From positions 1 to 24,325 of the forward strand of contig DYJV01000035.1 of NCBI GenBank assembly GCA_020722945.1: a stretch of DNA of 24,325 nt, written 5' to 3'. Below the pieces are notes generated by a model. That model saw only the letters and a list, made by a program, of their open reading frames with translations. It was not told where the DNA came from and made no database searches. The stretch is from Candidatus Methylomirabilis sp. (GTDB lineage: Bacteria > DYJV01). Positions 9,014 through 24,221 of this stretch are shown here, piece by piece (the first letter of the stretch is position 1; every line of letters begins with the position of its first letter). The position numbers were made by a program, and so were the translations under genes.

Positions 9014-9057
9014 TTTACTTTCAGTTAACAATTTTTTAACATTTTTATATTTAAATT
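9014..9057 (+). promoter_or_regulatory. Pho-box-like direct repeats and -10 element upstream of phnC
   Basis: Two identical hexamers TTAACA lie at 9025-9030 and 9036-9041, exactly 11 bp apart, preceded by a weaker unit TTTACT at 9014-9019 in the same 11-bp phase. Eleven-base periodic repeats are the hallmark of PhoB/PhoP binding sites, and TTAACA-type units are the PhoP version. A -10-like TAAATT begins 10 nt after the last unit (9052-9057), the spacing known for pho promoters where the box replaces the -35. phnC starts 36 nt further on. This predicts induction by phosphate starvation. Confidence 0.55.
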
Positions 9058-9093
9058 AGAAATCTTTTAAAAGTTTCTACAGATGGAGGGGTT

Positions 9094-9897
9094 ATGATTA
9101 ATATAGTCAATGGAGATATAGGATACGGAGAGAAGCTGATCCTTAATTCTATCAATTTATCAATAGTAAAAGGTGAGTTTGTTGGGGTCATCGGTTCTTC
9201 TGGAGCAGGGAAAACAACTTTGTTAAGAGCAATCACCAACAAAGCTGATATTATATCAGGGAATGTGAGAGTATTAGGTTTTGATTTATCATCAATATCA
9301 AAAAAAGATCTTATACTACTAAGAAGCAAGATAGGTTTTATCTTTCAGGGTTTCAATCTCGTAAATAGGATGAACGCAATAGAGAATGTTCTATCAGGGA
9401 TGCTCCATAAAATTTCACTATTTCGCTCTATAATCAAACTTTACAAAGATGAAAATATTGAAAAAGCGTATCTATGTTTAAAAACAGTTGGTCTTGAGAA
9501 AGAAGCATTATCAAGATGCGACAAGCTATCAGGTGGTCAGAGACAAAGAGTAGCAATAGCAAGAGCACTTGCTCAAGAGCCTGAGATGATTCTTGCTGAC
9601 GAACCAGTTGCGGCCCTTGATCCATATAGTGCAAAAGAGGTTATGGATATCCTAAATAAGATCAACAAAGAGTTAAAGGTAACAGTTGTTGCTAACCTCC
9701 ACCAATTAGAGATTGCCAAAGATTACTCAAAAAGGATTGTAGGAGTAAATAATGGCAACATACTCTTTGACAATCAAACATCTCTTCTCAGCAAGAGTGA
9801 CACTGACGAAATATATAAAAAATTGATAGACAAAAATATTTGCTTTAAAGAAAACAGTAAATACATTCAAAAATCAATCCAAGCAATAACAATATAA
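9094..9897 (+). CDS. phnC: Phosphonate ABC transporter ATP-binding protein PhnC
   Basis: This is the cytoplasmic ATPase of the phosphonate importer PhnCDE. At 267 residues it is a normal length. Walker A GSSGAGKTT is at 34-42, signature LSGGQRQR at 145-152, Walker B with ILADEP at about 166-171, and a switch His in NLHQLE. The SISKKDLILLRSKIGFIFQ stretch is typical of PhnC. The start is well supported by GGAGGG just upstream. It is the first gene of the phn operon, directly behind the Pho-box-like repeats. phnD and phnE follow, which confirms the assignment over other importer ATPases. Confidence 0.95.
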   Translation: MINIVNGDIGYGEKLILNSINLSIVKGEFVGVIGSSGAGKTTLLRAITNKADIISGNVRVLGFDLSSISKKDLILLRSKIGFIFQGFNLVNRMNAIENVLSGMLHKISLFRSIIKLYKDENIEKAYLCLKTVGLEKEALSRCDKLSGGQRQRVAIARALAQEPEMILADEPVAALDPYSAKEVMDILNKINKELKVTVVANLHQLEIAKDYSKRIVGVNNGNILFDNQTSLLSKSDTDEIYKKLIDKNICFKENSKYIQKSIQAITI

Positions 9898-9934
9898 AAT
9901 AAAAAAAATTAAAAAATCAGAAAAGGAGAGTTGA

Positions 9935-10810
9935 ATGAAAAAATTACTATTAATGTTTCTATCATTGTCAATTTTTGTAACAAGCTTATTTGCAGAAGAG
10001 GCGAAATACTCAAATGTAAAATGGCCTGAAAAAATTGTATTTGCAGTTATTCCAGTTGCATCAAGCAGGGAGATGTCTGAAAACTTTGACCCACTTGTAA
10101 AATATATGGAGAAAGAGCTTGGGATTAAAGTAGAATTTAAAGTAGCAAGTGATTATGCTGCTGTTATCAATGGAATGGGATTTAAACATGTCGATGTTGC
10201 ATATTTCGGACCAAACTCTTACTGTGAAGCTGCAGAAAGAGCCGGTGCAGAGGCTATAGCTGTTGAAGTAGATAAAAGTGGATCACCAGGATATTACGGT
10301 TATATCATTACCAAAAAAGATTCTAATTTAAAGACACTTGAAGATATAAAAGGTAAAACATGGGCATTTACTGACCCAAGTTCTACAAGTGGAACACTTG
10401 TCCCAACAGTTTTCTTTGCTAAAAAAGGTATTGACCCAAATAAATATTTTAGTAAAGTAATATACTCTGGCAGCCATGAAGCTTCTATTTTATCAGTTAA
10501 AAATGGGAAAGTGGAGTCAGCTTCTACAAACAACCTTGATTTTGAAAGAGGTTTAGGTAAACATTGGGAGAAGACAGATTTTAACATCATTCATAAATCA
10601 GATCTTATCCCCGGTTCACCTATTGCTGTAAGAAAAGATCTTCCTGAATCATTAAAAATGGCACTAAAAGGTGTTTTTGTATCTTTTAATGACCCTGTTG
10701 GATTAGAAAAATTAAAATTAAAAGGTTATGCTCCCAGTGATGATAAAATGTATGATGGGATAAGAGAACTTATAAAATTCAAAAAAGAGTTAAAGAAAAA
10801 ACAGCAGTAA
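9935..10810 (+). CDS. phnD: Phosphonate ABC transporter substrate-binding protein PhnD
   Basis: This is the periplasmic phosphate/phosphite/phosphonate-binding protein of the PhnCDE importer. The 291-residue product starts with a classic signal peptide (MKKLLLMFLSLSIF core) and a likely cleavage after LFA at residue 20; there is no lipobox cysteine, so it should be a soluble periplasmic protein rather than a lipoprotein. The mature part shows PhnD-family features: FAVIPVASSREMSENFDPL near the start, the hinge segment VDVAYFGPNSY, and the phosphonate-pocket region FTDPSSTSGTLVPT. The ribosome site is AAAGGAGAG upstream of the ATG. A stable hairpin follows the gene, which may protect the upstream mRNA so that the binding protein is made in excess over the permease. 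Confidence 0.94.
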   Translation: MKKLLLMFLSLSIFVTSLFAEEAKYSNVKWPEKIVFAVIPVASSREMSENFDPLVKYMEKELGIKVEFKVASDYAAVINGMGFKHVDVAYFGPNSYCEAAERAGAEAIAVEVDKSGSPGYYGYIITKKDSNLKTLEDIKGKTWAFTDPSSTSGTLVPTVFFAKKGIDPNKYFSKVIYSGSHEASILSVKNGKVESASTNNLDFERGLGKHWEKTDFNIIHKSDLIPGSPIAVRKDLPESLKMALKGVFVSFNDPVGLEKLKLKGYAPSDDKMYDGIRELIKFKKELKKKQQ

Positions 10811-10821
10811 ATCTTCTCCAT

Positions 10822-10859
10822 CTCACCTCTGCTATTTAAGATTTATAGGCAGGGGTGAG
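10822..10859 (+). repeat. Stable hairpin between phnD and phnE
   Basis: CTCACCTCTGC (10822-10832) can pair along all 11 positions with GCAGGGGTGAG (10849-10859), counting one U-G pair, around a 16-nt AT-rich loop. No T-tract follows immediately, so it is more likely an mRNA 3'-end stabiliser or partial attenuator than a full terminator. Confidence 0.65.
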
Positions 10860-10888
10860 CTCTCCTGTTAAAAAAAAGAGGAAATCAT

Positions 10889-11746
10889 ATGAGTTATCTA
10901 AATATAAAAAGAGAGTTAAACCCCTTTAAATTTAAAAATATATTTATTTCATTAGTAGCTTTGATGGTATTTGTCTGGTGCTGGAAGTCAACTGAAATGA
11001 GCTTTCAAAAGCTTATTACTGGGATGAATTCAATGTGGGCATACATTATAGGGAATCCTAAAATTGAAAATAGTAGTTTTTTTGATCTCAACCTAAACCC
11101 ACGTTATCTGATACTTTATTCAAAATCTATTTTAGAAACAATCCAGATGGCACTAATTTCATTAGTTATCTCAATCATAATTGCGTTTCCTCTATCATTT
11201 TTTGCTTCAAGAAATTTATTAGAAGTTTTTCTACCCGGCAATTCATTAATGAACGCTATTTTAAGAAAAGTTATATACTATTCAGCTTTTATAATTGCAA
11301 ATGTATTTCGCTCCATAAATGAGCTTGTATGGGCTCTCATATTTGTAACAGCCGTTGGTCTTGGTCCTATGTCAGGAATATTGGCACTCGGAATCCACAC
11401 ATCAGGAGTGTTATCAAAATTACTTGCAGAGGGGAATGAAAATATAGACCCTGCACCAATTGATGCACTGATGTCAACAGGTGCAAGTTTTATAAAAATA
11501 ATCAGGTTTGCTGTTTTACCTCAGACTCTACCTCATTTTGTTTCAATGGTTCTTTATAGATTTGAATCTGATGTTCGCTCTGCTTTTGTTTTGGGATTTG
11601 TGGGTGCAGGCGGTATAGGTTTTTATCTTTTCGATTCAATGAGGTCATTTGATAACGGCAGTGTTTCTACAATTCTTTTACTGATTGTGATCACAGTCTA
11701 TACAATAGACAAAATTAGTGCTTATATCAGAGCAAAGGTTGGATAA
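10889..11746 (+). CDS. phnE: Phosphonate ABC transporter permease PhnE
   Basis: This is the inner-membrane permease of the phosphonate importer, probably acting as a homodimer. It has 285 residues with about six hydrophobic segments, beginning with IFISLVALMVFVW near residues 19-31 and including MALISLVISIIIAFPL and a C-terminal ILLLIVITVYTI. The cytoplasmic EAA-type loop is present (ALMSTGASFIKIIRFAVLPQTLP region). FRSINELVWALIFV is typical of PhnE. The ribosome site is AAGAGGAAAT. The stop overlaps the phnG start (TAATG). Only one permease gene is present, as in E. coli K-12 and unlike species with a PhnE1/PhnE2 pair. Confidence 0.94.
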   Translation: MSYLNIKRELNPFKFKNIFISLVALMVFVWCWKSTEMSFQKLITGMNSMWAYIIGNPKIENSSFFDLNLNPRYLILYSKSILETIQMALISLVISIIIAFPLSFFASRNLLEVFLPGNSLMNAILRKVIYYSAFIIANVFRSINELVWALIFVTAVGLGPMSGILALGIHTSGVLSKLLAEGNENIDPAPIDALMSTGASFIKIIRFAVLPQTLPHFVSMVLYRFESDVRSAFVLGFVGAGGIGFYLFDSMRSFDNGSVSTILLLIVITVYTIDKISAYIRAKVG

Positions 11747-12162
11747 TGGCACGTGAAGAGTTAAATTTTTTTCTACAGTATAGCAACCAAGATAAATTAA
11801 AAAATCTTACTTCAAAAATTAGAGAGATGGAGAGTATTGAGATTATTATCAAACCTAATCAGGTTACTTTGATGCTTCCGATAAATGACCCTGTCAGCCA
11901 AAAACCTTTTTATTCCGGTGAGATTTTGGCAACACAATGTTATTTGGAGGTAAATGGAGTCAAAGGTTGGGCAATGGTTCCAGATTTTAACAATGAATTA
12001 TCTGAAAACATTGCAATATGTGATGCTTGTTTTGCTCAAAACATCCATTTGGCTGAGATAGAAGAGTTGCTCAATCAAGGGAAAAGAGAATACCAAAGCT
12101 TGATAGAAAGAGATAAAAAAATTGCAACTGATACAAAAGTTAATTTTGAAATAATGAATTAA
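11746..12162 (+). CDS. phnG: C-P lyase core subunit PhnG
   Basis: This is a subunit of the PhnGHIJ carbon-phosphorus lyase core complex, which converts alkylphosphonates to the ribose 1-phosphonate triphosphate and then cleaves the C-P bond. The product is 138 residues, slightly shorter than the usual 150. The central segment PFYSGEILATQCYLEV followed by NGVKGWAMVPDF and the C-terminal AICDACF region match PhnG proteins. With PhnH and PhnI, PhnG is needed for nucleophilic displacement of adenine from ATP by the phosphonate. It is translationally coupled to phnE by a TAATG overlap. It is followed by 169 bp of structured non-coding DNA, unusual inside a phn operon. Confidence 0.9.
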   Translation: MAREELNFFLQYSNQDKLKNLTSKIREMESIEIIIKPNQVTLMLPINDPVSQKPFYSGEILATQCYLEVNGVKGWAMVPDFNNELSENIAICDACFAQNIHLAEIEELLNQGKREYQSLIERDKKIATDTKVNFEIMN

Positions 12163-12163
12163 A

Positions 12164-12262
12164 AATCTCCTCTAATCCCTACTTTTAAGTAGGAGATACT
12201 CACAAATCAAACGATTAAAATGAGTTTATCTCTCTTTATAAGGGGGATAGCGGGGATTAAAA
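12164..12262. repeat. REP-like inverted repeat pair between phnG and phnH
   Basis: Two imperfect inverted copies face each other. The left arm runs AATCTCC, TCTAATCCC, then the CTACTTTTAAGTAG dyad and GGAGAT (12164-12196). The right arm, read on the opposite strand, runs AATCCCCGCTATCCCCC, TTATAAAG, AGAGAT (from 12259 back to about 12229). The layout of C-rich motifs, an AT dyad and an inverted partner resembles dispersed REP/BIME-type repeats of other bacterial genomes. In mRNA the CTAATCCC and GGGGATTA ends could pair over the whole element. Confidence 0.55.
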
Positions 12263-12331
12263 TAATGATTTTATGAGCAATAATGTTAATTTAAAATTAT
12301 TATAATGTAGCACCCAATACCAGAGGAGATA

Positions 12332-12862
12332 ATGGATATTGAAAAATTTAATAGGGTAAATTTCAGAAGTTTTCTAAAGGCAATCTCTTACCCCGGCACA
12401 CCTTTTAAGATAGAGAGTATTTATAACTCCTATATTTTAGCAGCAGCATCAACTTTTGTCTCACCAGAAACAACCTACTACATAGATGATACTGATAAAG
12501 TAAAAGAGAGTGCTGCAATTATTACAAATGGCTTAACATCAAAACCTGAAGATGCAGATTATATCTTTTCAGATAAATTGGACATAGAACTTCTTAGTAA
12601 ATCAAAAAGTGGTGATTTTTTAAATCCTGATAAAAGTGCAACTCTTTTTTTTCAAACATTAGTTACAAATCAGATACAAGTTACTCTGTCTGGAGCAGGT
12701 ATAAATGGGAAAAAGAGGGATTCACTCTCTATTGGGAAAGATTTCATCGAATCTTTTTATAAAAAAAATATGAATTTCCCTGTTGGGGTTGATGTTTTCC
12801 TTTTAAATAGCAACGGTTATGTTGTAGCTCTTCCAAGAAGTATAAAAATCGAGGTATTATAA
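12332..12862 (+). CDS. phnH: C-P lyase core subunit PhnH
   Basis: This is a core subunit of the C-P lyase complex PhnGHIJ, a small alpha/beta protein with a fold related to PLP-dependent transferases but without cofactor. It has 176 residues against about 194 in E. coli. The N-terminal NFRSFLKAISYPGTPFKI (the 'PG' motif), the central Thr-rich stretch and the C-terminal SGAGINGKKRDSL plus FPVGVDVFLL segments match the family. The ribosome site AGGAG (12324-12328) is very close to the ATG. A TATAAT at 12301-12306 lies upstream without a good -35 box. The stop overlaps phnI (TAATG). Confidence 0.92.
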   Translation: MDIEKFNRVNFRSFLKAISYPGTPFKIESIYNSYILAAASTFVSPETTYYIDDTDKVKESAAIITNGLTSKPEDADYIFSDKLDIELLSKSKSGDFLNPDKSATLFFQTLVTNQIQVTLSGAGINGKKRDSLSIGKDFIESFYKKNMNFPVGVDVFLLNSNGYVVALPRSIKIEVL

Positions 12863-13878
12863 TGGCTTATGTAGCTGCTAAAGGTGGCGAGCACGCAATA
12901 GAGAAATCAAAAGAGCATTACTTTAATCTCGTAAGAGCAAATAATCTCCATTTTTTAATTGATAAAATAATTAGCGAGGGAGCCCTTTATTCAGAAATTC
13001 TTGCATTAAAAGCATTAACTGAATCTGGCGGAGAACCTCTAAATGCAGGATTTTACTTGAGAGCACAAAGGACAACTTACAGAAGGCTCGGAAATCTTGC
13101 CGTATCATCCTTAATTAATTTTAGAATTATAAGAAGGATATCCTCTGCATTCAAAGATGTCCCCGGTGGACAAATATTAGGGCCCACTAATGATTATATA
13201 TTAAAAATTTTAAATGGTGGTGCTAAAATCAATTCATTTAATAGAGAGGATACAGATACCGAAGTTACTAATTTCATTGAAAATCAAAATATTCCAAGTG
13301 CAGTTGATCTTGTAAGAGATATGGGTTTAATTTTCCCTATAAATATAGATGAATCTCAACCATCTGATATAACAAGAGAGGCTCCTGCTCCTCCATATCC
13401 AAGGTCTGCTTCACTACAAATTATGGCAAGAGGTGAAACAGGGGGTATGCTTCTCCTTGCTTATACTTCGATGAGGGGTTACGGTGATATTCACCCTACT
13501 GTGGGGGATTTGAGAATAGGATACCTTGAGATTCTCTTCAAACACCCATTTACAGATAGAGAAGTAAAGATTGGAGAGATCAGAGCAACATCGTGCGAAG
13601 TAGTAGGTGCAACAAAAATTAAAGATAAGATGCTATTTACAGTTGGTTACGGATTTTGCTTTGGTTTTAACGAAACAAAAGCTATCTCTATGGCAATACT
13701 TGATAACGCCATGACATACTCATCATACACCGTAGGAGAAAAAGGTATTGCAGCAAGCAAAGAGATGGTTCTTATGCATATTGACAGCATAGAATCACTC
13801 GGATTTTGCAACCATTACAAACTCCCACACTATGTTACATTTCATTCCGATCTAAATATTGTAAAAGGTGATAAATAG
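12862..13878 (+). CDS. phnI: C-P lyase core subunit PhnI
   Basis: PhnI is the nucleosidase-type subunit that, with PhnG and PhnH, replaces the adenine of ATP by the phosphonate to give alpha-D-ribose 1-methylphosphonate 5-triphosphate. The product has 338 residues (E. coli 354). Conserved stretches are the N-terminal MAYVAAKGGEHAI, LRAQRTTYRRLGNL, RRISSAFKDVPGGQILGPT and RGYGDIHP (205-212) in the middle of the protein. Its start overlaps the phnH stop, and phnJ begins immediately after its stop, so the four core subunits are made in near-equal amounts as expected for a stoichiometric complex. Confidence 0.95.
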   Translation: MAYVAAKGGEHAIEKSKEHYFNLVRANNLHFLIDKIISEGALYSEILALKALTESGGEPLNAGFYLRAQRTTYRRLGNLAVSSLINFRIIRRISSAFKDVPGGQILGPTNDYILKILNGGAKINSFNREDTDTEVTNFIENQNIPSAVDLVRDMGLIFPINIDESQPSDITREAPAPPYPRSASLQIMARGETGGMLLLAYTSMRGYGDIHPTVGDLRIGYLEILFKHPFTDREVKIGEIRATSCEVVGATKIKDKMLFTVGYGFCFGFNETKAISMAILDNAMTYSSYTVGEKGIAASKEMVLMHIDSIESLGFCNHYKLPHYVTFHSDLNIVKGDK

Positions 13879-14715
13879 ATGAGTGAATATCTCAATTACA
13901 GTTATCTCGATGAAGATACAAAAAAGGAGATAAGAAGAGCAATAATAAAAGCAGTGGCTATCCCCGGATATATAGTTCCGTTTGCATCAAGAGAGATGCC
14001 AGTTTCAAGGGGTTGGGGGACAGGTGGATTGCAAATAACTCTCACAATAATTACGGAGAATGATAAATTAAAAGTAATTGACCAAGGTAGTGATGACTCT
14101 GTTAATGCCGTAATATTGAGAAACTTTATATCCTCATCCTCAAATTGTGGCAAAACCACCGATACAACAGAAGCAACAATTATTCAGACAAGGCATAGGA
14201 TTCCCGAAACAAAGACAAATGAAAATCAGATAATAGTCTTCCAAGTGCCTTATCCTGATGCTCTTGTAACAGTTGAACCAGACTCTTACAAACAGAAACT
14301 ACTTCACGCTTTTAATGATTATTCAAAATTATGGACACTCCTTTATGAAGATATATCTACAATGGGCGACAGCAGATTTAGCCATAGATATCCTGTAAAA
14401 GTTAACAACAGATATATAATGGATCCATCACCTATACCAAGATACGATATCCCAAAACTTAACAACAATAGTTCTTTACTACTTTTTGGTGCAGGTAGAG
14501 AGAAGCGAATTTATGCAATTCCGCCTTATACCACAGTAGAACCGATAAAGTTTGATGATATCCCATTTAAGATAGAAAGATACGACAACATCAGATGTGA
14601 AAAATGTGGTGCAGCGGATGTTTTTTTAGATGTTATTAAAATTAATGGAGAAGAGCACTATTTTTGTAACGACACAGATTTTTGTAAAAGGAATTTGAAT
14701 GCTGTTAAAAGCTGA
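13879..14715 (+). CDS. phnJ: Alpha-D-ribose 1-methylphosphonate 5-phosphate C-P lyase PhnJ
   Basis: This is the radical-SAM catalytic subunit that breaks the carbon-phosphorus bond, releasing alkane (methane from methylphosphonate) and the ribose 1,2-cyclic phosphate 5-phosphate. At 278 residues it matches the family (281). The C-terminal cysteine set typical of PhnJ is complete: C240, C243, C263 and C269 (C-x2-C-x19-C-x5-C). Three bind the 4Fe-4S cluster, and the last corresponds to the thiyl-radical cysteine (Cys272 in E. coli). Gly30 in AIPGYIVPF corresponds to the glycine proposed to carry the glycyl radical (Gly32). Other PhnJ hallmarks are RGWGTGG, QTRHRIPET, DPSPIPRYD and FGAGREKRIYA. 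The enzyme therefore looks active. It overlaps phnK by 17 bp. Confidence 0.97.
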   Translation: MSEYLNYSYLDEDTKKEIRRAIIKAVAIPGYIVPFASREMPVSRGWGTGGLQITLTIITENDKLKVIDQGSDDSVNAVILRNFISSSSNCGKTTDTTEATIIQTRHRIPETKTNENQIIVFQVPYPDALVTVEPDSYKQKLLHAFNDYSKLWTLLYEDISTMGDSRFSHRYPVKVNNRYIMDPSPIPRYDIPKLNNNSSLLLFGAGREKRIYAIPPYTTVEPIKFDDIPFKIERYDNIRCEKCGAADVFLDVIKINGEEHYFCNDTDFCKRNLNAVKS

Positions 14716-15529
14716 AAATATAAGTAGAATTTATGGTGCTTCTTGCGGAAAGTGCCTTGATAAAACAGGTGCAAGTCAGAACAGCTCGATATGTCCAATT
14801 TGTAAAAGCATTGTGGCTGTAAAAAATGTTAATCTCACATTAAACAGAAATCAGGTATTAGGTATTGTGGGTGAAAGTGGCAGTGGCAAATCAACTCTTT
14901 TAAAAATATTATACCTCATAGAACAACCAACTTATGGTGCTCTATATATAACCCAACCAGAATCATTCAAAAATAAAAATATATTCTCGCTCAATCTGAT
15001 AGAGCAGAATCTTTATCGGAATGTTTACACCTCTATAGTTCACCAGCGGATAGAAAATGGTTTAAATTTTAATTTTTCAGCAGGAGCAAATGTTTCAGAG
15101 CGTATAATCTCCTCAGGTCAAAGGAACTTTGAATATATCAAAAATCAGGTTAATAATTTACTCGAAAAAACAGAGATTCCTACTTCAAGGGGGAATGACC
15201 TTCCAGAAAAATTTTCAGGTGGTCAGCAGCAGAGGATACAGATTTCAAAATCACTTGCCAATTCACCTTTTCTACTCTTTCTTGATGAGCCAACAACAGG
15301 GCTTGATGTATCTATTCAGGCAAAGATAATAGACCTTATAAAAAGTCTTCAAGATAGCTACAAATTCTCAATAATATTGGTGTCGCACGATTTAAGTGTG
15401 ATCAAACACCTTACAGATATAACAGTTGTTATGAAAAATGGTGAAATAGTTGAAAAAGGGTTAACTGACCAGATACTTGAAGACCCTCAGCACCCTTACA
15501 CTCAATTACTTGTATCAAGTATTCTTTAA
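14699..15529 (+). CDS. phnK: C-P lyase ABC-type ATPase PhnK with N-terminal four-Cys insert
   Basis: PhnK is an ABC-type ATPase that docks on the C-P lyase core rather than on a membrane permease. It has 276 residues with Walker A GESGSGKST (58-66), signature FSGGQQQR (172-179) and Walker B LLFLDEPT (192-199). Between the first beta strand and Walker A it carries an insert with two knuckles, C16-x2-C19 and C32-x2-C35, that could bind zinc or an Fe-S centre. E. coli PhnK lacks this, though as I recall many other bacterial PhnK proteins have it. The start lies within the end of phnJ, with AAAAGG upstream. Homology to peptide-transport ATPases is general, but position and the GIVGESGSGKST context fix it as PhnK. 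Confidence 0.93.
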   Translation: MLLKAENISRIYGASCGKCLDKTGASQNSSICPICKSIVAVKNVNLTLNRNQVLGIVGESGSGKSTLLKILYLIEQPTYGALYITQPESFKNKNIFSLNLIEQNLYRNVYTSIVHQRIENGLNFNFSAGANVSERIISSGQRNFEYIKNQVNNLLEKTEIPTSRGNDLPEKFSGGQQQRIQISKSLANSPFLLFLDEPTTGLDVSIQAKIIDLIKSLQDSYKFSIILVSHDLSVIKHLTDITVVMKNGEIVEKGLTDQILEDPQHPYTQLLVSSIL

Positions 15530-15550
15530 TCAAGGGGAACAAGGGGAAGT

Positions 15551-16246
15551 ATGAAACTAATTGTAGATAAACTTTCAAAAAAATTTAAACTCCACCTGCA
15601 AAATAGCAGAGAGATTTCTGCAGTCACAGATGTCTCCTTCTCATTAAAAAAGGGTGAGTTTCTCTCAATTATTGGTCCCAGTGGTTCAGGTAAATCTACT
15701 ATTTTAAAATGTATATACCGAACATATCTACCAACAGATGGTGAGATAAAATTTTTTAAAGAAGATAGTCAAATTTTAAATCTACATAATGCCACAGAGG
15801 ATGAAGTAATAAAATTAAGAAGGGGAGAAATAGGTTATATAAGCCAATTTCTCAAAGTTTTACCAAGAGTAGCAACTTTGGACATAGTTGCCAAACCTTT
15901 GATAGATATAGGAGTAAAAGAGAGCGAAGCAAAAGAGGAAGCGAGGGAGTTGCTTCTCTACCTTGGGATAAAAAGAGAGCTTCACGATATTTCACCATTG
16001 ACATTTTCAGGGGGTGAACAGCAGAGGGTTAATATTGCAAAGGAGATAATCGCACCTAAAAAGCTACTATTAGTTGACGAACCAACCGCATCACTTGACG
16101 AAGAGAGGAAAAAACTTGTTGTTCAACTTTTTAAAAAGCTTAAAGAGCAAAATATAACCATCATAAGCATTTTTCATGAATTAGATTTGATAAATAAAAT
16201 TACAGATAAGTTTTTAAAATTAGATGAGGAGAAATATGCAGATTAA
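15551..16246 (+). CDS. phnL: C-P lyase ABC-type ATPase PhnL
   Basis: This is the second ABC-type ATPase associated with the C-P lyase complex; in known structures a PhnK dimer, with PhnL on top of it, is bound to the core. It has 231 residues with Walker A GPSGSGKST (42-50), signature FSGGEQQR (152-159) and Walker B LLLVDEPT (172-179). The Q-loop region GYISQFLKVLPRV and following LDIVAKPL are characteristic of PhnL and distinguish it from LolD-type ATPases. A purine-rich AAGGGGAAG precedes the ATG. The end overlaps the start of phnM by 11 bp. Confidence 0.94.
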   Translation: MKLIVDKLSKKFKLHLQNSREISAVTDVSFSLKKGEFLSIIGPSGSGKSTILKCIYRTYLPTDGEIKFFKEDSQILNLHNATEDEVIKLRRGEIGYISQFLKVLPRVATLDIVAKPLIDIGVKESEAKEEARELLLYLGIKRELHDISPLTFSGGEQQRVNIAKEIIAPKKLLLVDEPTASLDEERKKLVVQLFKKLKEQNITIISIFHELDLINKITDKFLKLDEEKYAD

Positions 16247-17363
16247 TTTACGTTCTACAAGAGTGATGATTGAAAATGAGATAAGAAAAGCAGATATTAC
16301 AATAAAAAATGGTAAAATATCAAAAATATTAGAGTATAAAACATTGCCATACTGTAAAAATATGGCAAATGCGTTGATTTTACCGGGATTTATAGATCTT
16401 CACTCCGATGCAATCGAAAAAGAGATAGAGCCAAGACCGGGTGCAATTTTCCCTATAGAAGAAGCTATCCTCGATTTAGATAAAAAATTGTCAATTGCAG
16501 GTATTACAACGATGTTTCATGCAGTAGCTTTTGAAACTGTTGTAGGTGGGAAAATCCGTAGTGCGGAGATATCAGAAAAAATAGTAAGAGCAGTAAAATC
16601 TCTCAAAGAGAAACTCTCTACCAACAATATGGTTCATCTCAGATACGATATTGCAGCTACTGAATCTTTTAATACTGTTAAAAATTTAATAGAAGAGGGT
16701 TATGTAGACCTATTCTCTTTAATGGATCATTCCCCCGGACAGGGGCAGTTTAAATCTTTTGATAAATGGAAAAAATATTATTCAGGTGCATATAATCTTG
16801 ACGAAAATGAACTCAAAAAATTAAAGGAGAAGAAATTACAGAAAAATGAGGATAATATAGTAGAACTAATTAAGACAGCAAAAGCTCACCAAATCAAAAT
16901 TGCTTCCCATGATGATGATACAGTGGAAAAGGTTGATATTATAAAAAAATATGGTATTACAATCTCTGAATTTCCTCTATCTGTTGAAGTAGCTGAAAAA
17001 GCAAAAGAGTATGGGATAATGACCGGAATGGGGGCGCCTAATGTTGTCAGAAATGGAAGTCAATGTGGGAATATATCTGCAAAAGAGTTGATAAAAAGGG
17101 GGCTATGTGATTATCTCTGTTCAGATTATCATCCAAATTCAATGTTAAAAGCAGTTTATACAATTAATAGAGATTTAGGTATCCCAATCGAAGAGGCTTT
17201 CCAAATAATAACCTCTAACCCGTCAAAAGCTGCAGGTCTTTCAGAGTATGGTGAGATAAAAGAGGGTAAAAAAGGTGATATTGTGGCTGTCCATGATAGC
17301 AATATCTACCCTGAAATCATCTTAACAATATGTAACGGTAAAATAGTATATAGCAAAAGCTAA
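16236..17363 (+). CDS. phnM: Alpha-D-ribose 1-methylphosphonate 5-triphosphate diphosphatase PhnM
   Basis: PhnM is a metal-dependent amidohydrolase-superfamily enzyme that removes pyrophosphate from the ribose 1-phosphonate 5-triphosphate, making the substrate of PhnJ. The ATG at 16236 is preferred over the ATG at 16224: AGGAG (16227-16231) lies 4 nt upstream of the former, while the earlier one has no ribosome site. This gives 375 residues (E. coli 378). Metal-site motifs are GFIDLHSD (51-58, replacing the usual HxH by HSD as in PhnM), a conserved HLRYD, ASHDDDT (223-229) and CSDYHP (295-300). It overlaps phnL by 11 bp and leads into phnN with a 10-nt gap. Confidence 0.95.
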   Translation: MQINLRSTRVMIENEIRKADITIKNGKISKILEYKTLPYCKNMANALILPGFIDLHSDAIEKEIEPRPGAIFPIEEAILDLDKKLSIAGITTMFHAVAFETVVGGKIRSAEISEKIVRAVKSLKEKLSTNNMVHLRYDIAATESFNTVKNLIEEGYVDLFSLMDHSPGQGQFKSFDKWKKYYSGAYNLDENELKKLKEKKLQKNEDNIVELIKTAKAHQIKIASHDDDTVEKVDIIKKYGITISEFPLSVEVAEKAKEYGIMTGMGAPNVVRNGSQCGNISAKELIKRGLCDYLCSDYHPNSMLKAVYTINRDLGIPIEEAFQIITSNPSKAAGLSEYGEIKEGKKGDIVAVHDSNIYPEIILTICNGKIVYSKS

Positions 17364-17373
17364 CCTTGATAAA

Positions 17374-17901
17374 ATGGATAAAAAATTTTTTCTCATAACA
17401 GGTCCAAGTGGCTCTGGCAAAGACACATTAATCAAAATTGCAAGACAATCGTTAGAACATAATGAAAATTTTCTATTCATCAAGAGGTATATTACGAGAA
17501 AACCTGATACAAATGAAGAAAACTACTACTTATCAAAAAGTGCCTTTAAAATTCTTGAAAAAAATAATTTTTTCTTTACTACATGGTCAATTTATAATAA
17601 TTTTTACGGTATAAGTCTTGAAGATATATCAGAAAAGAGTAAAAATATTATTATTTCAGTATCAAGGGATAAAATTGGAGAATTTGAGGAGAAATTTAGC
17701 AATGTTACAACCATCTATATAACATCTACTCTCGCCAAAATAGAAACAAGACTTCAAACGCGAGCAAGAGAAGATAAAGAGTTGATAAAGGATCGCCTGA
17801 GCAGATTTGATATTATTCCTAATGCAAAAAATCTTAAAACTATATTCAATGATGAATTGATAAGCTCATCTGAGGAACTGATAAAAATATTAAATAGTTA
17901 A
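17374..17901 (+). CDS. phnN: Ribose 1,5-bisphosphate phosphokinase PhnN
   Basis: PhnN phosphorylates ribose 1,5-bisphosphate to PRPP, returning the ribose carrier of the C-P lyase pathway to nucleotide synthesis. The product has 175 residues, close to the E. coli enzyme (185). The P-loop GPSGSGKDT is at 10-18, and the family resembles guanylate kinases; the RYITRKPD segment and the HGW-like position, here YNNFYGIS, correspond to the nucleotide-monophosphate kinase layout. The ribosome site before the ATG is weak. It is the last gene of the phn cluster, with no clear terminator after it. No phnP (the cyclic phosphodiesterase that makes its substrate) is found here. Confidence 0.85.
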   Translation: MDKKFFLITGPSGSGKDTLIKIARQSLEHNENFLFIKRYITRKPDTNEENYYLSKSAFKILEKNNFFFTTWSIYNNFYGISLEDISEKSKNIIISVSRDKIGEFEEKFSNVTTIYITSTLAKIETRLQTRAREDKELIKDRLSRFDIIPNAKNLKTIFNDELISSSEELIKILNS

Positions 17902-18134: not shown

Positions 18135-18686
18135 ATGATTGAAATAAGATTTCATGGAAGGGGTGGACAGGGTGCTGTTACTTCAGCAGAGGTTCTTGCT
18201 ACTGCTGCAATCAACAGTGGGAAATTTGCCCAAGCATTTCCAAGTTTTGGGCCAGAGAGAAGGGGCGCCCCGGTTATTGCATTTTCAAGAATTGCAGACC
18301 ATAAAATCCTTAACAGAACCAAAATTTACAATCCAGACATCGTAATAGTTCTTGATCCCTCTATAATGAAAATCGTTGATGTAACATCAGGCATTAATGA
18401 CAATGGCGTTGTTGTCGCCAATACAAAGCTTTCACCTGAAGAGATGAAAGCAATTTTTAAAAAAAGCAATATACGATGTGCTACTGTTAATGCCACCAAG
18501 ATAGCTCTCGATATACTCAAAAGACCTATTACCAACATTGTTATGCTTGGTGCACTCCTAAAAGCAAATAATGTGGTTGATATGGAGTATTTTTTAGAAC
18601 CTCTTGAAGCACGCTTCGGTAAAATTGCTGCTAAAAATATGGAAGCATGCAAAAAAGCATTTGAAGAAGTAAAAATATCAAATTAA
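18135..18686 (+). CDS. porC: Pyruvate:ferredoxin oxidoreductase gamma subunit
   Basis: This is the gamma subunit of a four-subunit 2-oxoacid:ferredoxin oxidoreductase, which oxidises pyruvate plus CoA to acetyl-CoA and CO2 with reduction of ferredoxin (or the reverse in CO2 fixation). It has 183 residues, the usual size. The GRGGQG motif (8-13) and [19 protein letters not shown] are diagnostic of the gamma domain. The VVVLDPS-like segment reads IVVLDPS in other family members and IVIVLDPS here. It heads a seven-gene operon, and its ribosome site AAGGGG (18122-18127) is well placed. Assignment to pyruvate rather than 2-oxoisovalerate rests on the porA and porB sequences. Confidence 0.92.
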
Positions 18687-18711
18687 AATAAAGAGAATAA
18701 AGGAGTAAAAA

Positions 18712-19014
18712 TTGAAGTGGCCAGTTAAAAATATTCAAGATATAAAATGGCAAGATCTCGAACTGGGAATGACAATTACTGAGCCTGGTAGTTCAAGATT
18801 TTACAAAACCGGAGATTGGAGAACATTCAAGCCTGTTGTTGACAAATCAAAATGTATAAAGTGTGGTTTATGCTATATATTTTGTCCAGATGCAGCTATT
18901 TACGAGGATAATGAGGGTTTTTTTGTTGCAAATCTCGACTACTGTAAAGGTTGCGGAATATGTGCTAAAGAGTGTTATGTCCAATGTATCACAATGGTTG
19001 AGGAGGAGGTATAA
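18712..19014 (+). CDS. porD: Pyruvate:ferredoxin oxidoreductase delta subunit (2x[4Fe-4S])
   Basis: This is a 100-residue ferredoxin-like delta subunit carrying electrons from the catalytic subunits to the external acceptor. Two 4Fe-4S binding sets are visible: C48, C51, C54, C58 and C78, C81, C84, C88. The second set ends CYVQC instead of the usual CP, with an extra cysteine (C92). The N-terminal part up to TGDWRTFKPVVD is typical of PorD. The start codon is TTG (18712), supported by AGGAG (18701-18705) six nt upstream and by the absence of a better in-frame ATG. It overlaps porA by one base. Confidence 0.92.
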   Translation: MKWPVKNIQDIKWQDLELGMTITEPGSSRFYKTGDWRTFKPVVDKSKCIKCGLCYIFCPDAAIYEDNEGFFVANLDYCKGCGICAKECYVQCITMVEEEV

Positions 19015-20192
19015 TGTCTAAAAGAGTAGGGATAGAGGTTTCATTAGGTGTAAGTGAAGCTGTAAAACTTTCAAATAGCGATTGCATTGCAGCATATCCG
19101 ATAACTCCTCAAACTCATATTGTTGAGCATCTTTCCGAAATAGTTGCTAATGGTGAGCTTGACGCAGAATTTATTCCGGTAGAATCTGAACATTCAGCAA
19201 TGAGCGTATGTTGTGGTTGTTCAGCTGCTGGTGCAAGGACTTATACTGCTACAAGTTCACAAGGTTTGGTCCTTATGAGTGAAATAGTCCATATAGTTCC
19301 TTCATTGAGGTTACCCATAGTGATGACCCTTGCAGACAGGTCTATTTCAGGACCTATCAGTATATGGAATGACCATACAGATGCAATGAGTATCCGTGAT
19401 TGCGGATGGATACAGTTTTTTGCTGAAAATGGTCAGGAATCATTCGATGCACATCTTCAGGCTTTCAAAATAGCAGAAGATAAAAGAGTTCTTCTTCCTG
19501 TAATGGTTCATATGGACGGCTTTATACTTACCCATATGATAGAGCCTATAGAGTTTCTTGACCAGAGTGAAGTTGACAAATTTTTACCCAAAAATTATGA
19601 ACCTATTATGCAGCTTAATCCTGAGAAGCCATTTACAATGGGGGCAGTAGGTATTCCCGAAATTTATACAGAAGCCAAAAAAGTCAACGATTACATACTT
19701 CAAGAATCAAAAAAAGTTATTCTTGAGGTATGGAAAGATTTTGGTGATAAATTTGGGAGATACTTCAATCCAATAGAATCCTACAAAACAGAAGATGCAG
19801 ATATAGTGCTAATCACAATGGGGAGTTTTGGTGAAATAGCTGCACTTGCTATTGATGAGCTAAGAAAAGAGGGTGAAAAAGCAGGTCTTGTAAAGATAAG
19901 ACTTTGGAGACCTTTCCCATATCAAGAGTTTTACAACGCTATCCAAAATGTAAAAGGTATCGGCGTTATTGATAGAGCAATCACTTATGGGACAGAGGGT
20001 GGTCCTGTTGGAATAGAAATAAGAAGCTCCCTTTATGATATGCCAAATAAACCTGTTGTTACAGATTTCATTGCAGGTCTTGCAGGCAGGGATGTTAAGA
20101 TAAATGATTTCAAACAGATGTATTACAAAACAAAAGAAGCCGTTAAACAAGGCAAAGCACTTCCTTATCAATTTATAGGAGTAAGAGGCTAA
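19014..20192 (+). CDS. porA: Pyruvate:ferredoxin oxidoreductase alpha subunit
   Basis: This is the alpha subunit containing the pyrimidine-binding part of the thiamine diphosphate site. It has 392 residues. The motif AAYPITPQTHIVEHL near residue 26 and VESEHSAMS near 56 (Glu being the thiamine-activating residue) are diagnostic, followed by ARTYTATSSQGL and WNDHTDAMS. The C-terminal domain (about 250-390) has the transketolase-C layout, with the ITMGSFGEIAA segment. The stop/start overlap with porD and porB implies tight coupling. Compared with 2-oxoglutarate enzymes, YPITPQT and the separate gamma and delta genes favour pyruvate, but related 2-oxo acids cannot be excluded. Confidence 0.92.
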   Translation: MSKRVGIEVSLGVSEAVKLSNSDCIAAYPITPQTHIVEHLSEIVANGELDAEFIPVESEHSAMSVCCGCSAAGARTYTATSSQGLVLMSEIVHIVPSLRLPIVMTLADRSISGPISIWNDHTDAMSIRDCGWIQFFAENGQESFDAHLQAFKIAEDKRVLLPVMVHMDGFILTHMIEPIEFLDQSEVDKFLPKNYEPIMQLNPEKPFTMGAVGIPEIYTEAKKVNDYILQESKKVILEVWKDFGDKFGRYFNPIESYKTEDADIVLITMGSFGEIAALAIDELRKEGEKAGLVKIRLWRPFPYQEFYNAIQNVKGIGVIDRAITYGTEGGPVGIEIRSSLYDMPNKPVVTDFIAGLAGRDVKINDFKQMYYKTKEAVKQGKALPYQFIGVRG

Positions 20193-21118
20193 TGGAAAAA
20201 TACAATATATATTCAGCTAAATTATTACCCAAATGGGAAATTTTATCTCAAGGACACAGAGCATGTCAAGGGTGTGGAGAGCTCCTCGCTGTGCGACAGG
20301 TTTGCAAAGCAATTGGTCCTGATATGATTATTGCTAATGCAACAGGTTGCCTCGAAATTGTTACTTCATCTTTTCCTGACACTGCATGGACTGTCCCATG
20401 GATGCATGTTGCTTTCGAAAATGCTGCGGCTGTTGCAAGTGGAATAGAATCAGCAATTAAAGTCCTAAAAAGGAAAGGGCGATACCCTACAGACAGAGAA
20501 ATTAAAATTCTTGCCTTTGCTGGTGATGGGGGGACTGCAGATATAGGTCTTCAAGCATTAAGTGGTGCTCTTGAAAGAGGACACGATTTTATGTATGTCT
20601 GTTATGACAATGAAGCTTATATGAATACAGGTATCCAGCGTTCAAGCTCTACCCCTTTCTGTGCAAGCACTACTACTTCTCCTGCTGGCAAAAATAGTAG
20701 AGGTCAACGGACAAACAAAAAAAATATCCCTGAAATTGCTGTTGCTCACAATATCCCTTACGTTGCAACCGCTTGTCCATCATACCCTTTTGATCTTATG
20801 GCAAAAGCCAAAAAGGGAGCTGATATGAAAGGTGCCGCATATTTACATATATTTGCTCCATGTCCTACTGGTTGGAGGACATTACCTGATGACACCGTAG
20901 ATATAGGGAGAATTGCTGTTGAAACAGGCATTTTTCCACTTTATGAAGTTGTGAACGGAGATTACAAAATGACCTATACTCCACAAGAGTTACTACCTGT
21001 CAAAGATTACCTCAAAGGCCAAGGGAGATACCGACACCTTACAGAGCAGGATATAGAAGAGATTCAACAAATGGTCAAGAACAACTATAGCAAACTGCTC
21101 AAAAAATGCACTTTATAA
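20192..21118 (+). CDS. porB: Pyruvate:ferredoxin oxidoreductase beta subunit (ThDP, 4Fe-4S)
   Basis: This is the beta subunit binding thiamine diphosphate and the proximal 4Fe-4S cluster. It has 308 residues. Cluster ligands are C25, C28, C53 and C224, in the RACQGCGE, TGCLE and APCPTGW contexts. The ThDP/Mg motif is GDGGTADIG (111-119) with the Asn/Thr end in NEAYMNTG (140-147). WTVPWMHVAFENAAA and RSSSTPF match PorB rather than KorB. It overlaps porA by one base. A short gap with AAAGGAG leads to the nuoE-like gene, showing that the oxidoreductase and diaphorase genes form one transcription unit. Confidence 0.93.
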   Translation: MEKYNIYSAKLLPKWEILSQGHRACQGCGELLAVRQVCKAIGPDMIIANATGCLEIVTSSFPDTAWTVPWMHVAFENAAAVASGIESAIKVLKRKGRYPTDREIKILAFAGDGGTADIGLQALSGALERGHDFMYVCYDNEAYMNTGIQRSSSTPFCASTTTSPAGKNSRGQRTNKKNIPEIAVAHNIPYVATACPSYPFDLMAKAKKGADMKGAAYLHIFAPCPTGWRTLPDDTVDIGRIAVETGIFPLYEVVNGDYKMTYTPQELLPVKDYLKGQGRYRHLTEQDIEEIQQMVKNNYSKLLKKCTL

Positions 21119-21130
21119 AGGAGTTAATAA

Positions 21131-21577
21131 ATGGAATATATTGACAAGATATTATCCAATTACAATAATGACAAATCTTACCTTATCTCTATACTTCAAG
21201 ATATGCAGGATAATGCTGGTTATCTCAAAAAAGAAGATCTTCTGGAGCTTGCTAAAAAACTTGATCTACCTATTATAGATGTTTATAGGGTTGCTTCATT
21301 TTTTAGAGCTTTCAGCCTTACTCCAAGAGGGAAAAACATTATTCAGATATGTCTTGGGACAGCCTGCCATGTCAGGGGTGGAGATAAAGTCCTTGATGAA
21401 TTTGAGAGAAACCTCAAAATTCAACCATCATCTACAACAAAAGATGGCAAATTTACACTTGAGACCGTTAACTGTCTCGGTGCGTGTGCTCTTGGTCCTG
21501 TAGTAGTTGTAAACAGCAAATATTACGGAAATGTAATCCCAAAAGATGTTCCTGAAATACTTGCAAAATATGAATAA
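21131..21577 (+). CDS. NuoE-like [2Fe-2S] subunit of a diaphorase module
   Basis: This is a thioredoxin-fold 2Fe-2S subunit of the NuoE/HndA/HydC family. It has 148 residues. An N-terminal helical bundle (about 1-65) is followed by the cluster site C74-x4-C79 (CLGTACHVRGG) and C115-x3-C119 (CLGACALGP). It normally pairs with the NuoF-like subunit near FMN. The ribosome site is AAAGGAG. In the operon it lies between porB and the NuoF-like gene, not in a nuoA-N cluster, so it belongs to a soluble NAD(H)-reactive complex rather than to complex I. Confidence 0.92.
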   Translation: MEYIDKILSNYNNDKSYLISILQDMQDNAGYLKKEDLLELAKKLDLPIIDVYRVASFFRAFSLTPRGKNIIQICLGTACHVRGGDKVLDEFERNLKIQPSSTTKDGKFTLETVNCLGACALGPVVVVNSKYYGNVIPKDVPEILAKYE

Positions 21578-21595
21578 GATTATGAGGTGCCTACA

Positions 21596-23449
21596 ATGAA
21601 ATTTAACTCTACAAAAGATTTTCAAATTTATACCACAAAATTAAAAGAGTCAAATAAAAGTAAAGAGAAGATAACTATTACTGTCTGTTCAGGGACTGGA
21701 TGTCAAGCTCATGGAAGTTCTGAAGTTATCTCTGCTCTTAAAGATAAGATAACTTCCAAAAATCTCTCTCAAAAAGTAGAGCTTAAAGCCACTGGTTGCC
21801 ACGGATTTTGTGAGAGAGGTCCTCTTTTTGTTATCCACCCGCAAGGTGTATTTTACGAAAGAGTAAAAGTCGATATGCTTGATGAGATATTAGATGAAAC
21901 TATTATCAACGGGAAAGTAATCGAGAAATTTTTATACAAAGACCCTTCCACCAAAGATAAAATTACTCTTGAAAAAGATATCCGATTTTACTCATTGCAG
22001 GAGAGAATTTTACTTAAAAACAACAGTTTTATAGAGCCTGACAAAATTGATGACTACTTTTTGGTTGATGGCTATACTGCTCTATGCAAAGTCCTTCAGA
22101 ATATGTCACCTACCCATATAATTGATGAAATAAAGAAATCTGGTCTCAGAGGCAGGGGTGGTGGAGGCTTCCCTACTGGAGTTAAATGGGAATCAAGCCA
22201 AAAAATCAAAAGTAACAAAAAATATATCATTTGCAACGCTGATGAAGGTGATCCCGGTGCATATATGGATAGAAGTCTCCTTGAAGGGAATCCTCATCTT
22301 GTCATTGAGGGGATGCTTATTGGTGCGTATGCTGTTGGTGCTGATGAAGGTTTTGTATATGTCAGACACGAATATCCTCTGGCAGTCAAGAATCTTACTA
22401 CTGCTATCAAACAAGCTGAAGAGAGAGGCTTGCTTGGTCAAAACATACTTGGAACAGGGTTTAATTTTAAACTCCACGTAAGCCGAGGTGGTGGAGCATT
22501 TGTGTGTGGAGAATCTTCAGCACTCATTGCTTCAATCGAGGGTAAAGCTGGAGAACCTCGTGCCAAACATATACATATGTCAGAAAGAGGTTTATGGGAC
22601 AAACCGACTGTCCTTAATAATGTGGAAACATGGGGGAATATCCCTTTTATAATCAACAATGGAGCAGATTGGTTTTCCAAAATAGGGACAGAGGGTAGCA
22701 AAGGCACAAAAATATTCTCGCTTGTTGGAAAAGTCAATAATACTGGATTAGTCGAAGTCCCTATGGGAGTTACATTAAGGCATATAATTTTTGATCTTGG
22801 TGGAGGTATATTAAACAAGAGAAAATTTAAAGCTGTCCAGACAGGTGGTCCCTCTGGTGGCTGTATCCCTGAATCTTTACTTGATACAAAAGTTGATTTT
22901 GACGAGCTTATAAAAGTTGGCTCTATGATGGGTTCTGGTGGAATGATTGTTATGGATGAAAGAACTTGTATGGTTGATGTTGCCAAATATTTTCTCAACT
23001 TCCTAAAAGATGAATCTTGCGGTAAATGCACTACATGTAGAGAAGGCATCAAAAGAATGCACGAAATTCTTCAGAAAATCACAAATGGTGAAGGGGAAGA
23101 GGGTGATATAGAACTGCTTGAAAATATTGCTGAAGTTGTAAAAGAGGCTTCTCTGTGCGGACTTGGAAAGACAGCACCTAATCCAGTTTTAAGCACCCTT
23201 AGATATTTTAAGGATGAGTATCTCGCACATATCAGAGACCACAAATGTCCAGCAGGAGTTTGTAAAAACCTCACAACATTCAAAATAGATGAAGATAAGT
23301 GTGTAGGCTGCCAAGCTTGCTACAAAAATTGCCCAGTTGAAGCAATTAGTGGAAGCAAAAAAGAGCCTCACAAAATTGATCAGAGTAAATGTATTAAATG
23401 TGGGATATGTTATGATAGCTGTAAATTTGATGCTGTTAAAATAAATTAA
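21596..23449 (+). CDS. NuoF-like NADH-binding subunit with extra Fe-S domains (HydB/HndC type)
   Basis: This is an NAD(H)/FMN-binding flavoprotein subunit of 617 residues from the ATG at 21596. That start has GAGGTG 6 nt upstream, while the GTG at 21587 lies inside this site. Domains in order: an N-terminal thioredoxin-like 2Fe-2S (C31, C36, C68, C72); the FMN/NADH core with GRGGGGFP (186-193), CNADEGDPGAY and RGGGAFVCGE; the 4Fe-4S site CGKCTTC with C521; a CPAGVC motif (551-556); and a C-terminal 2x[4Fe-4S] ferredoxin (C569, 572, 575, 579 and C599, 602, 605, 609). This layout is that of HydB/HndC/BfuB, not of plain complex I NuoF. Such subunits can couple NAD(H) to ferredoxin; here no hydrogenase is encoded beside it. 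Confidence 0.93.
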   Translation: MKFNSTKDFQIYTTKLKESNKSKEKITITVCSGTGCQAHGSSEVISALKDKITSKNLSQKVELKATGCHGFCERGPLFVIHPQGVFYERVKVDMLDEILDETIINGKVIEKFLYKDPSTKDKITLEKDIRFYSLQERILLKNNSFIEPDKIDDYFLVDGYTALCKVLQNMSPTHIIDEIKKSGLRGRGGGGFPTGVKWESSQKIKSNKKYIICNADEGDPGAYMDRSLLEGNPHLVIEGMLIGAYAVGADEGFVYVRHEYPLAVKNLTTAIKQAEERGLLGQNILGTGFNFKLHVSRGGGAFVCGESSALIASIEGKAGEPRAKHIHMSERGLWDKPTVLNNVETWGNIPFIINNGADWFSKIGTEGSKGTKIFSLVGKVNNTGLVEVPMGVTLRHIIFDLGGGILNKRKFKAVQTGGPSGGCIPESLLDTKVDFDELIKVGSMMGSGGMIVMDERTCMVDVAKYFLNFLKDESCGKCTTCREGIKRMHEILQKITNGEGEEGDIELLENIAEVVKEASLCGLGKTAPNPVLSTLRYFKDEYLAHIRDHKCPAGVCKNLTTFKIDEDKCVGCQACYKNCPVEAISGSKKEPHKIDQSKCIKCGICYDSCKFDAVKIN

Positions 23450-23461
23450 GAGGAGCAATTT

Positions 23462-24151
23462 ATGGTTAAGCTTAAAATAAACGGTAAAATTATAGAGGTC
23501 AAAGAAGAGACAACTATATTGGAAGCTGCATCCAAATTAGGGATACAAATTCCTACACTTTGCAACCACGAAGCATTGTCACCTTACGGATCTTGCAGAT
23601 TATGTATTGTAGAGGTAAAAAGAGGTGGTAGAAGTGAAATTACAACCTCCTGTAATTACCTTATCACAAAGGAGATAGAGGTCCAAACCAACAGTGAAAA
23701 AATTATAAAATATAGACAAATGATAATACAGCTTCTACTTGGAAGATGCCCGGACAACCCCAAATTACTCGAATTAGCCAAATCTTTGGGTGTTACCTCC
23801 CCCATATTCCAAGCCGATCCTTATGACGATTGCATCTTATGTGGCAGATGTGTCAGAGCGTGCAGTGAGGTTGTCAAGGTAAATGCTATTACCTTTGCCG
23901 GCAGAGGTGTATCAAGGAGAGTAGAACCACCTTTTGGTGATTACAACGATCTCTGCATTGCTTGTGGAGCCTGTGCTTTTGTCTGCCCAACAGGAGCAGT
24001 TCAGGTTCAATTTGATGGGACAAATAAAATTATTGATAAATGGGAGAAAGTTACCCCTATTGTTGAAGTTAAAAATTCTGGTCAACATTATATGACAGAA
24101 GCTCAGATAAATTACTTCAAAAATTCATTTAACTTTACACCAAACAACTAA
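23462..24151 (+). CDS. Short NuoG/HydA-like ferredoxin subunit (2Fe-2S plus 2x4Fe-4S), no catalytic domain
   Basis: This is a 229-residue electron-transfer subunit. The plant-type 2Fe-2S site is C34, C45, C48, C64. Then comes a linker (LLLGRCPDNPKLLELAKSLGV region, 91-111) where NuoG and HydA normally have a His-Cys 4Fe-4S site; only C96 is present, so that cluster is probably absent. Two 4Fe-4S sites follow: C124, C127, C130, C134 and C165, C168, C171, C175. The protein stops about 50 residues later, with neither an H-cluster (hydrogenase) nor a molybdopterin domain. The start has AGGAG. It is the last gene of the operon and is followed by a rho-independent terminator. It probably bridges the NuoEF-like pair and the pyruvate oxidoreductase, either directly or through ferredoxin. 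Confidence 0.88.
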   Translation: MVKLKINGKIIEVKEETTILEAASKLGIQIPTLCNHEALSPYGSCRLCIVEVKRGGRSEITTSCNYLITKEIEVQTNSEKIIKYRQMIIQLLLGRCPDNPKLLELAKSLGVTSPIFQADPYDDCILCGRCVRACSEVVKVNAITFAGRGVSRRVEPPFGDYNDLCIACGACAFVCPTGAVQVQFDGTNKIIDKWEKVTPIVEVKNSGQHYMTEAQINYFKNSFNFTPNN

Positions 24152-24164
24152 AAATAATCCAAAC

Positions 24165-24192
24165 AAAAAAGAGGGGTATAGCCCTCTTTTTT
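24165..24192 (+). terminator. Rho-independent terminator of the por-diaphorase operon
   Basis: An A-tract (24165-24170) plus GAGGG (24171-24175) pairs with CCCTC (24182-24186) plus a T-tract (24187-24192) across the 6-nt loop GTATAG. It begins 13 nt after the last stop codon. The A-tract makes it work in both directions. Confidence 0.88.
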
Positions 24193-24221
24193 GTTGCCCT
24201 CTTTTAAAGAGTATCTAATCA

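Follow-up and report, generated by a model that had tools for sequence, protein, structure and literature searches.

A four-subunit pyruvate:ferredoxin oxidoreductase and a Bfu-type diaphorase encoded in one operon of a hydrogenase-free bacterium: a further member of the predicted Por-Bfu enzymes

The 24,325-nucleotide (nt) stretch of DNA analysed here (contig DYJV01000035.1 of assembly GCA_020722945.1, deposited as Candidatus Methylomirabilis sp.; the window, in what follows) carries at positions 18135-24151 a tight operon of seven plus-strand open reading frames (ORFs), porC-porD-porA-porB-bfuC-bfuB-bfuA, which specify the four subunits of a pyruvate:ferredoxin oxidoreductase (POR) followed by the three subunits of a Bfu-type diaphorase. 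The successive intergenic gaps from porC to bfuA measure 25, -1, -1, 12, 9 and 12 nt, the negative values being two 1-nt overlaps, and a GGAG-like ribosome site precedes most of the seven starts. All seven genes were identified by NCBIfam or Pfam models; on the POR side, the cut-offs of pyruvate-specific equivalog models are passed by three of the four subunits (PorC, PorD and PorB), with PorA below. The eight cysteines of PorD are kept in 12 of 12 relatives, and the nearest solved structure to PorA is the POR alpha subunit of PDB entry 9bt4. There is no hydrogenase gene within the operon. An earlier sequence-only reading of this DNA had described the same layout, i.e. seven por and nuoEFG-like genes with gaps of at most 25 nt, ending at a terminator, and all of the details that were checked proved right. 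The operon is thus real and not a product of chance, and it is largely anticipated by the literature: the arrangement was already predicted in 2022 as Por-Bfu by Schut et al. (PMC9304861), who relied on 12 sequences, mainly from Chloroflexi (Dehalococcoides mccartyi) and syntrophic Proteobacteria, and who cite co-expression of the D. mccartyi Por-Bfu genes. The window holds a further member of this group, whose name was used by no other publication in the literature searched.

Do the two halves of the operon belong together outside this genome? The order porC-D-A-B-bfuC-B-A is identical and complete in 18 other loci, 15 of them reached by starting from BfuB similarity and three fetched later (L176, L178 and L180), and two further loci with the same order (L011 and L175) are interrupted by contig ends. 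The hosts belong to the Chloroflexota, the Thermodesulfobacteriota and other Deltaproteobacteria, SAR324, WOR-3, the Bacillota and the Zymogenaceae; the synteny is therefore not confined to the present genome, and because the whole gene order is kept in unrelated genomes, a chance arrangement can be excluded. The association is also specific with regard to POR paralogues. Across 36 genomes, bfu genes lie downstream of 21 of the 23 PorA paralogues that are 52-64% identical to that of the window, as opposed to one of the 26 at 50% identity or less, the exception being the Loki locus L072 described below. The 36 genomes were picked for a similar BfuB, which biases the absolute rate of linkage and leaves the comparison of paralogues within genomes fair. 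In the POR tree, all Bfu-linked PORs except that of Loki form one clade (Shimodaira-Hasegawa-like approximate likelihood ratio test, SH-aLRT, 98) with two unlinked members only (L177 and L179).

The exception provides a different kind of evidence. In L072, from the Promethearchaeota (Loki) metagenome-assembled genome (MAG) Hel_238_bin105, the order is porC-porD-porA-bfuC-bfuB-[bfuA::porB], where the last ORF (8836-10326) is a single in-frame protein of 496 amino acids (aa) that stands in place of separate bfuA and porB genes, with BfuA at about residues 1-185 and PorB at about 190-492. This fusion points to BfuA lying next to PorB. The L072 POR belongs to another lineage, its grouping with the remaining Bfu-linked PORs being rejected by the approximately unbiased (AU) test (p = 3.7e-7), so that at least two POR lineages have been paired with Bfu modules and a single POR-side origin of the pairing, Loki included, has to be abandoned; a single origin on the Bfu side was not rejected by the same test (p = 0.11). 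The proposal of the sequence-only reading that POR and diaphorase make up one NAD(H)/ferredoxin-linked pyruvate enzyme is thereby strengthened on three counts, namely the wide synteny, the dedicated POR clade and the archaeal BfuA-PorB fusion.

The cofactor anatomy of the diaphorase half is that of the bifurcating family. BfuB carries the additional parts that had been read from its sequence (an N-terminal 2Fe-2S thioredoxin-like domain, a CPAGVC motif and a C-terminal 2x[4Fe-4S] domain); the Complex1_51K, NADH_4Fe-4S and C-terminal 4Fe-4S ferredoxin parts are present, and the SLBB match remains under the Pfam cut-off (23.1 vs 27). Its top PDB matches are the electron-bifurcating 7t2r_B, then 9mqx_B (an entry whose identity was not found in the literature searched), 8a6t_B and 7q4v_B, and NuoF of complex I ranks far below these four. 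The alignment with 7t2r_B spans 587 positions without a single gap, and residue roles can therefore be transferred directly. The ligands of the B2 cluster, including a histidine (H525 in 7t2r), mark the bifurcating family and are absent from non-bifurcating homologues (PMC9304861). The corresponding C461, H548, C554 and C559 are kept in all 17 Por-linked BfuB sequences compared, and T499 stands at the C476 site (7t2r numbering), as it does in about two thirds of the bifurcating family. The best PDB match of BfuC is the HydC chain 8a6t_C, its four cysteines again being kept in 17 of 17. In BfuA, the 12 ligand cysteines for one 2Fe-2S and two 4Fe-4S clusters are kept in 16 of 16; the protein is devoid of a catalytic domain and of the His-Cys3 motif and fits the Type 2 BfuA of PMC9304861, which has three clusters only, A1, A2 and A4 by the assignment of that paper, with A3 and A5 missing.

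How does this set compare with known systems? With the predicted Por-Bfu it shares the four POR subunits and BfuABC in one cluster, a Type 2 BfuA without a catalytic domain and the conserved BfuBC cofactors; it differs in having a host beyond the Chloroflexi and Proteobacteria of PMC9304861 and in a feature of the BfuA C-terminus taken up below. The characterised Wor-Bfu of Acetomicrobium mobile (cited in PMC9304861) likewise feeds a low-potential third substrate into a Type 2 BfuA and follows the same BfuBC core logic, with a tungsten aldehyde oxidoreductase where the window has a POR. NiFe-HydABCSL (PDB 7t2r and 7t30) is the source of the gapless BfuB alignment, B2 ligands included, whereas a [NiFe]-hydrogenase serves there as the third partner, BfuA has 692 aa as against 229 aa here, and its BfuB residue C476 is a threonine in the window. 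FeFe-HydABC and Hnd have homologues of BfuB and BfuC with NAD, flavin mononucleotide (FMN) and ferredoxin clusters, yet their BfuA bears an H-cluster and that of the window bears none. Finally, phenylglyoxylate dehydrogenase (Pad) belongs, like the enzyme proposed here, to the POR family and is NAD(H)-linked, but the scores of the window subunits against Pad models are far under the cut-off. The NAD-linked subunit of Pad is of another kind and not a Bfu protein.

Table. Features of the por-bfu operon in the window
Feature	Position	Strand	Evidence
porC, POR gamma subunit, 183 aa	18135..18686	+	NCBIfam NF006321 228.9 bits vs cut-off 225; Pfam POR
porD, 2x[4Fe-4S] delta subunit, 100 aa, TTG start	18712..19014	+	NCBIfam PorD_Arch 122.9 vs cut-off 120
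porA, alpha subunit, 392 aa	19014..20192	+	PorA_Arch 486.9 bits, under cut-off 550
porB, TPP (thiamine pyrophosphate)-binding beta subunit, 308 aa	20192..21118	+	NCBIfam NF008819 pyruvate synthase PorB 433.3 vs cut-off 405
bfuC, NuoE/HydC-like, one 2Fe-2S, 148 aa	21131..21577	+	PF01257, 169.8 bits
bfuB, NuoF/HydB-like, FMN/NAD(H) site, predicted ferredoxin branch, 620 aa, GTG start	21587..23449	+	Complex1_51K, NADH_4Fe-4S, Fer4
BfuB B2-cluster ligands C461, T499, H548, C554, C559	22967..23263	+	Ungapped alignment to 7t2r_B, offset 23
bfuA, HoxU/NuoG-N-like, 2Fe-2S + 2x[4Fe-4S], 229 aa	23462..24151	+	Best PDB match 9mqx_A
Terminator-like hairpin	24162-24195	+	14 pairs + T-run

Because the gene order is conserved, the association is paralogue-specific, the PORs form a dedicated clade and BfuA is fused to PorB in one archaeon, the operon is best read as encoding a single enzyme. 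That the Por and Bfu subunits of the window form one complex is, to judge from these genomic patterns, very probable, and it is probable that this complex is one heptameric Por-Bfu enzyme acting as a reversible pyruvate:NAD+/ferredoxin oxidoreductase; true bifurcation by it is plausible at close to the same level of confidence. We infer the assembly of the subunits, the electron path, the bifurcation and the direction in vivo from sequence. PorABC with PorD would convert pyruvate and CoA to acetyl-CoA and CO2 at TPP, and the electrons would pass from TPP through the PorB/PorD clusters and the three clusters of BfuA into the BfuB-BfuC core. There, FMN and the B2/C1 clusters may divide them between NAD+ and ferredoxin, the latter being reached by way of the ferredoxin-like clusters at the C-terminus of BfuB; run in the opposite direction, the enzyme would make pyruvate at the joint expense of NADH and reduced ferredoxin. 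With the potentials listed in Table 1 of PMC9304861 (pyruvate -500, NAD -280 and ferredoxin -500 mV), two pyruvate oxidised by NAD+ and ferredoxin were computed to yield about -42 kJ, and the balance point of [AcCoA][CO2]/([pyr][CoA]) to lie at about 10^3.6, compared with 10^0 for a ferredoxin-only and 10^7.2 for an NADH-only reaction. Por-Bfu might thus offer an intermediate gear that permits oxidation at low pyruvate, or a cheaper synthesis of pyruvate from acetyl-CoA made by carbon monoxide dehydrogenase/acetyl-CoA synthase (CODH/ACS).

What else could such an operon encode? One complex might be formed and still work as a plain NAD-linked POR without bifurcation, comparable to the NADH-linked phenylglyoxylate dehydrogenase or to the NADH-only hydrogenase of Syntrophomonas wolfei. 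Since pyruvate is as reducing as ferredoxin, bifurcation is thermodynamically needless here (PMC9304861 Table 1), and the Por subunits and the Loki fusion do match models of NADH-dependent phenylglyoxylate dehydrogenase, albeit below cut-off. We nevertheless regard this as unlikely, because the B2-B5 clusters of BfuB, which non-bifurcating homologues lack (PMC9304861), are all kept together with the diagnostic histidine, and because Wor-Bfu, whose substrate has an equally low potential, proved tightly coupled in work that PMC9304861 cites. Less likely again is that the operon yields two enzymes, namely a POR with soluble ferredoxin as its acceptor and a BfuABC working with this ferredoxin, NAD(H) and some other third partner. 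The two POR-clade members without adjacent bfu genes (L177 and L179) would fit such a division, as would a second bfuCBA set of the host that has no neighbouring catalytic partner; against it stand the BfuA-PorB fusion, the clade-specific association, the constant order across phyla and the fact that, in a genome free of hydrogenases, BfuA has no catalytic domain. The least likely of the three is that a complex of the Por-Bfu type acts on another 2-oxoacid, e.g. 2-oxoisovalerate: the score of PorA against its pyruvate model does fall short (486.9 vs a cut-off of 550), and there are also matches to related 2-oxoacid:ferredoxin oxidoreductase (OFOR) models, but PorB, PorC and PorD all exceed pyruvate-specific cut-offs.

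Several observations weigh against a single bifurcating Por-Bfu enzyme. The BfuA of the window is without the C-terminal CxxC present in 15 of 16 relatives, reading VxxS instead (V203, S206). L177 and L179 have no bfu genes downstream, so that the Bfu-linked type of POR can probably function without an adjacent Bfu. Trees of BfuCBA neither resolve nor reject the Por-linked members as one clade, and near the window sequence the resolution of the BfuB and BfuCBA trees built here is poor; in the published tree, Por-Bfu is assigned to BfuB clades 35, 44 and 45. The fusion is found in one MAG only, with no other full-length match among 195 genomes of its phylum, and BfuB is missing from the one order-mate genome of the host that was examined. 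Lastly, no Por-Bfu activity was found in the literature searched, nor a Por-Bfu structure in the PDB copy searched. The broader proposition, that Por-Bfu is widespread and bifurcating, with BfuA docked directly on PorB and Bfu joined from at least two POR lineages, and serves intermediate-potential pyruvate oxidation or synthesis in anaerobes, seems to us somewhat better than an even bet.

The host genome (2.51 Mb in 184 contigs, 98% complete, 5.8% contamination) delimits the role that such an enzyme could play. No [FeFe] or [NiFe] hydrogenase was detected in a search of this whole, 98% complete genome, in keeping with the absence of a hydrogenase noted from the operon at the outset; a hydrogenase partner encoded elsewhere was accordingly not found. 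The suggestion that the operon might be relevant to a reductive tricarboxylic acid (TCA) cycle did not survive for this host: the genome search returned no protein of the citrate synthase fold (PF00285), and CODH/ACS alpha/beta is present, as is an RnfC-like protein. Because CODH/ACS is present and the citrate synthase fold was not found, pyruvate metabolism of the host probably joins the acetyl-CoA pool of the Wood-Ljungdahl pathway rather than a reductive TCA cycle. Sulfate reduction was likewise dismissed, with no DsrA over cut-off and just a 19-bit ferredoxin-like match. The host RpoB is nearest, at 57%, to that of a Thermodesulfobacteriota MAG, and the host appears to be a sparsely sampled, Thermodesulfobacteriota-like lineage.

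Por-Bfu is not the sole pyruvate enzyme of this host, as the genome also encodes a second POR, of the four-subunit type, and a divergent single-chain PFOR-like protein. The second POR operon (L100:2149-6422, host contig C68) consists of porC, a gene for a 542-aa GltD-like flavoprotein whose C-terminal cysteine motifs resemble PorD, porA and porB; the comparable spacing seen in L189, L197, L200 and L201 hints at another, NAD(P)H-linked type of POR. The second bfuC-bfuB-bfuA set (L097:5349-8597, host contig C146), with a BfuB 48-49% identical, lies on a 9.3-kb contig that carries no gene for a catalytic partner. A complex I-like operon (L103:4068-8728, host contig C110) carries nuoB, C, D, H, I and J, with a formate dehydrogenase-like protein as NuoG that contains an in-frame TGA at a selenocysteine-like site (DHCARL-U-HSSTVAGL). 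The GltD-like protein next to it (646 aa) carries a NuoF C-terminal domain. Directly upstream of the por operon, window positions 9094-17901 hold a phosphonate (carbon-phosphorus lyase) operon, phnC, D, E, G, H ... M, N, of which phnC, D, E and H are over curated cut-offs; the ORFs at the places of phnI and phnJ (12862-13875 and 13879-14712) have no NCBIfam match at 1e-20. Other surroundings of bfuCBA were seen outside this host. In the Deltaproteobacteria MAG CSMAG_234 (L075:3161-7918), distant porA/porC-like genes (28-31%) precede bfuCBA, possibly representing a different 2-oxoacid oxidoreductase joined to Bfu, and in eight loci from bacteria and one archaeon (L012, L014, L023, L037, L045, L048, L055 and L080) a gene for a protein of about 525 aa comes next after bfuCBA.

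POR holds a central place in the carbon metabolism of anaerobes, and its reaction is usually given with ferredoxin as the only carrier. What the present analysis adds to the prediction of PMC9304861 is a new host, a paralogue-specific association, a second POR lineage and a fusion protein, the last of which, together with a clear operon from a hydrogenase-free host, makes the Por-Bfu prediction directly testable. Should a large clade of PORs be permanently coupled to a core that bifurcates between NAD and ferredoxin, then metabolic models of Dehalococcoidia, Deltaproteobacteria and related anaerobes would in many cases misassign both the electron carrier of pyruvate and its energetic cost.

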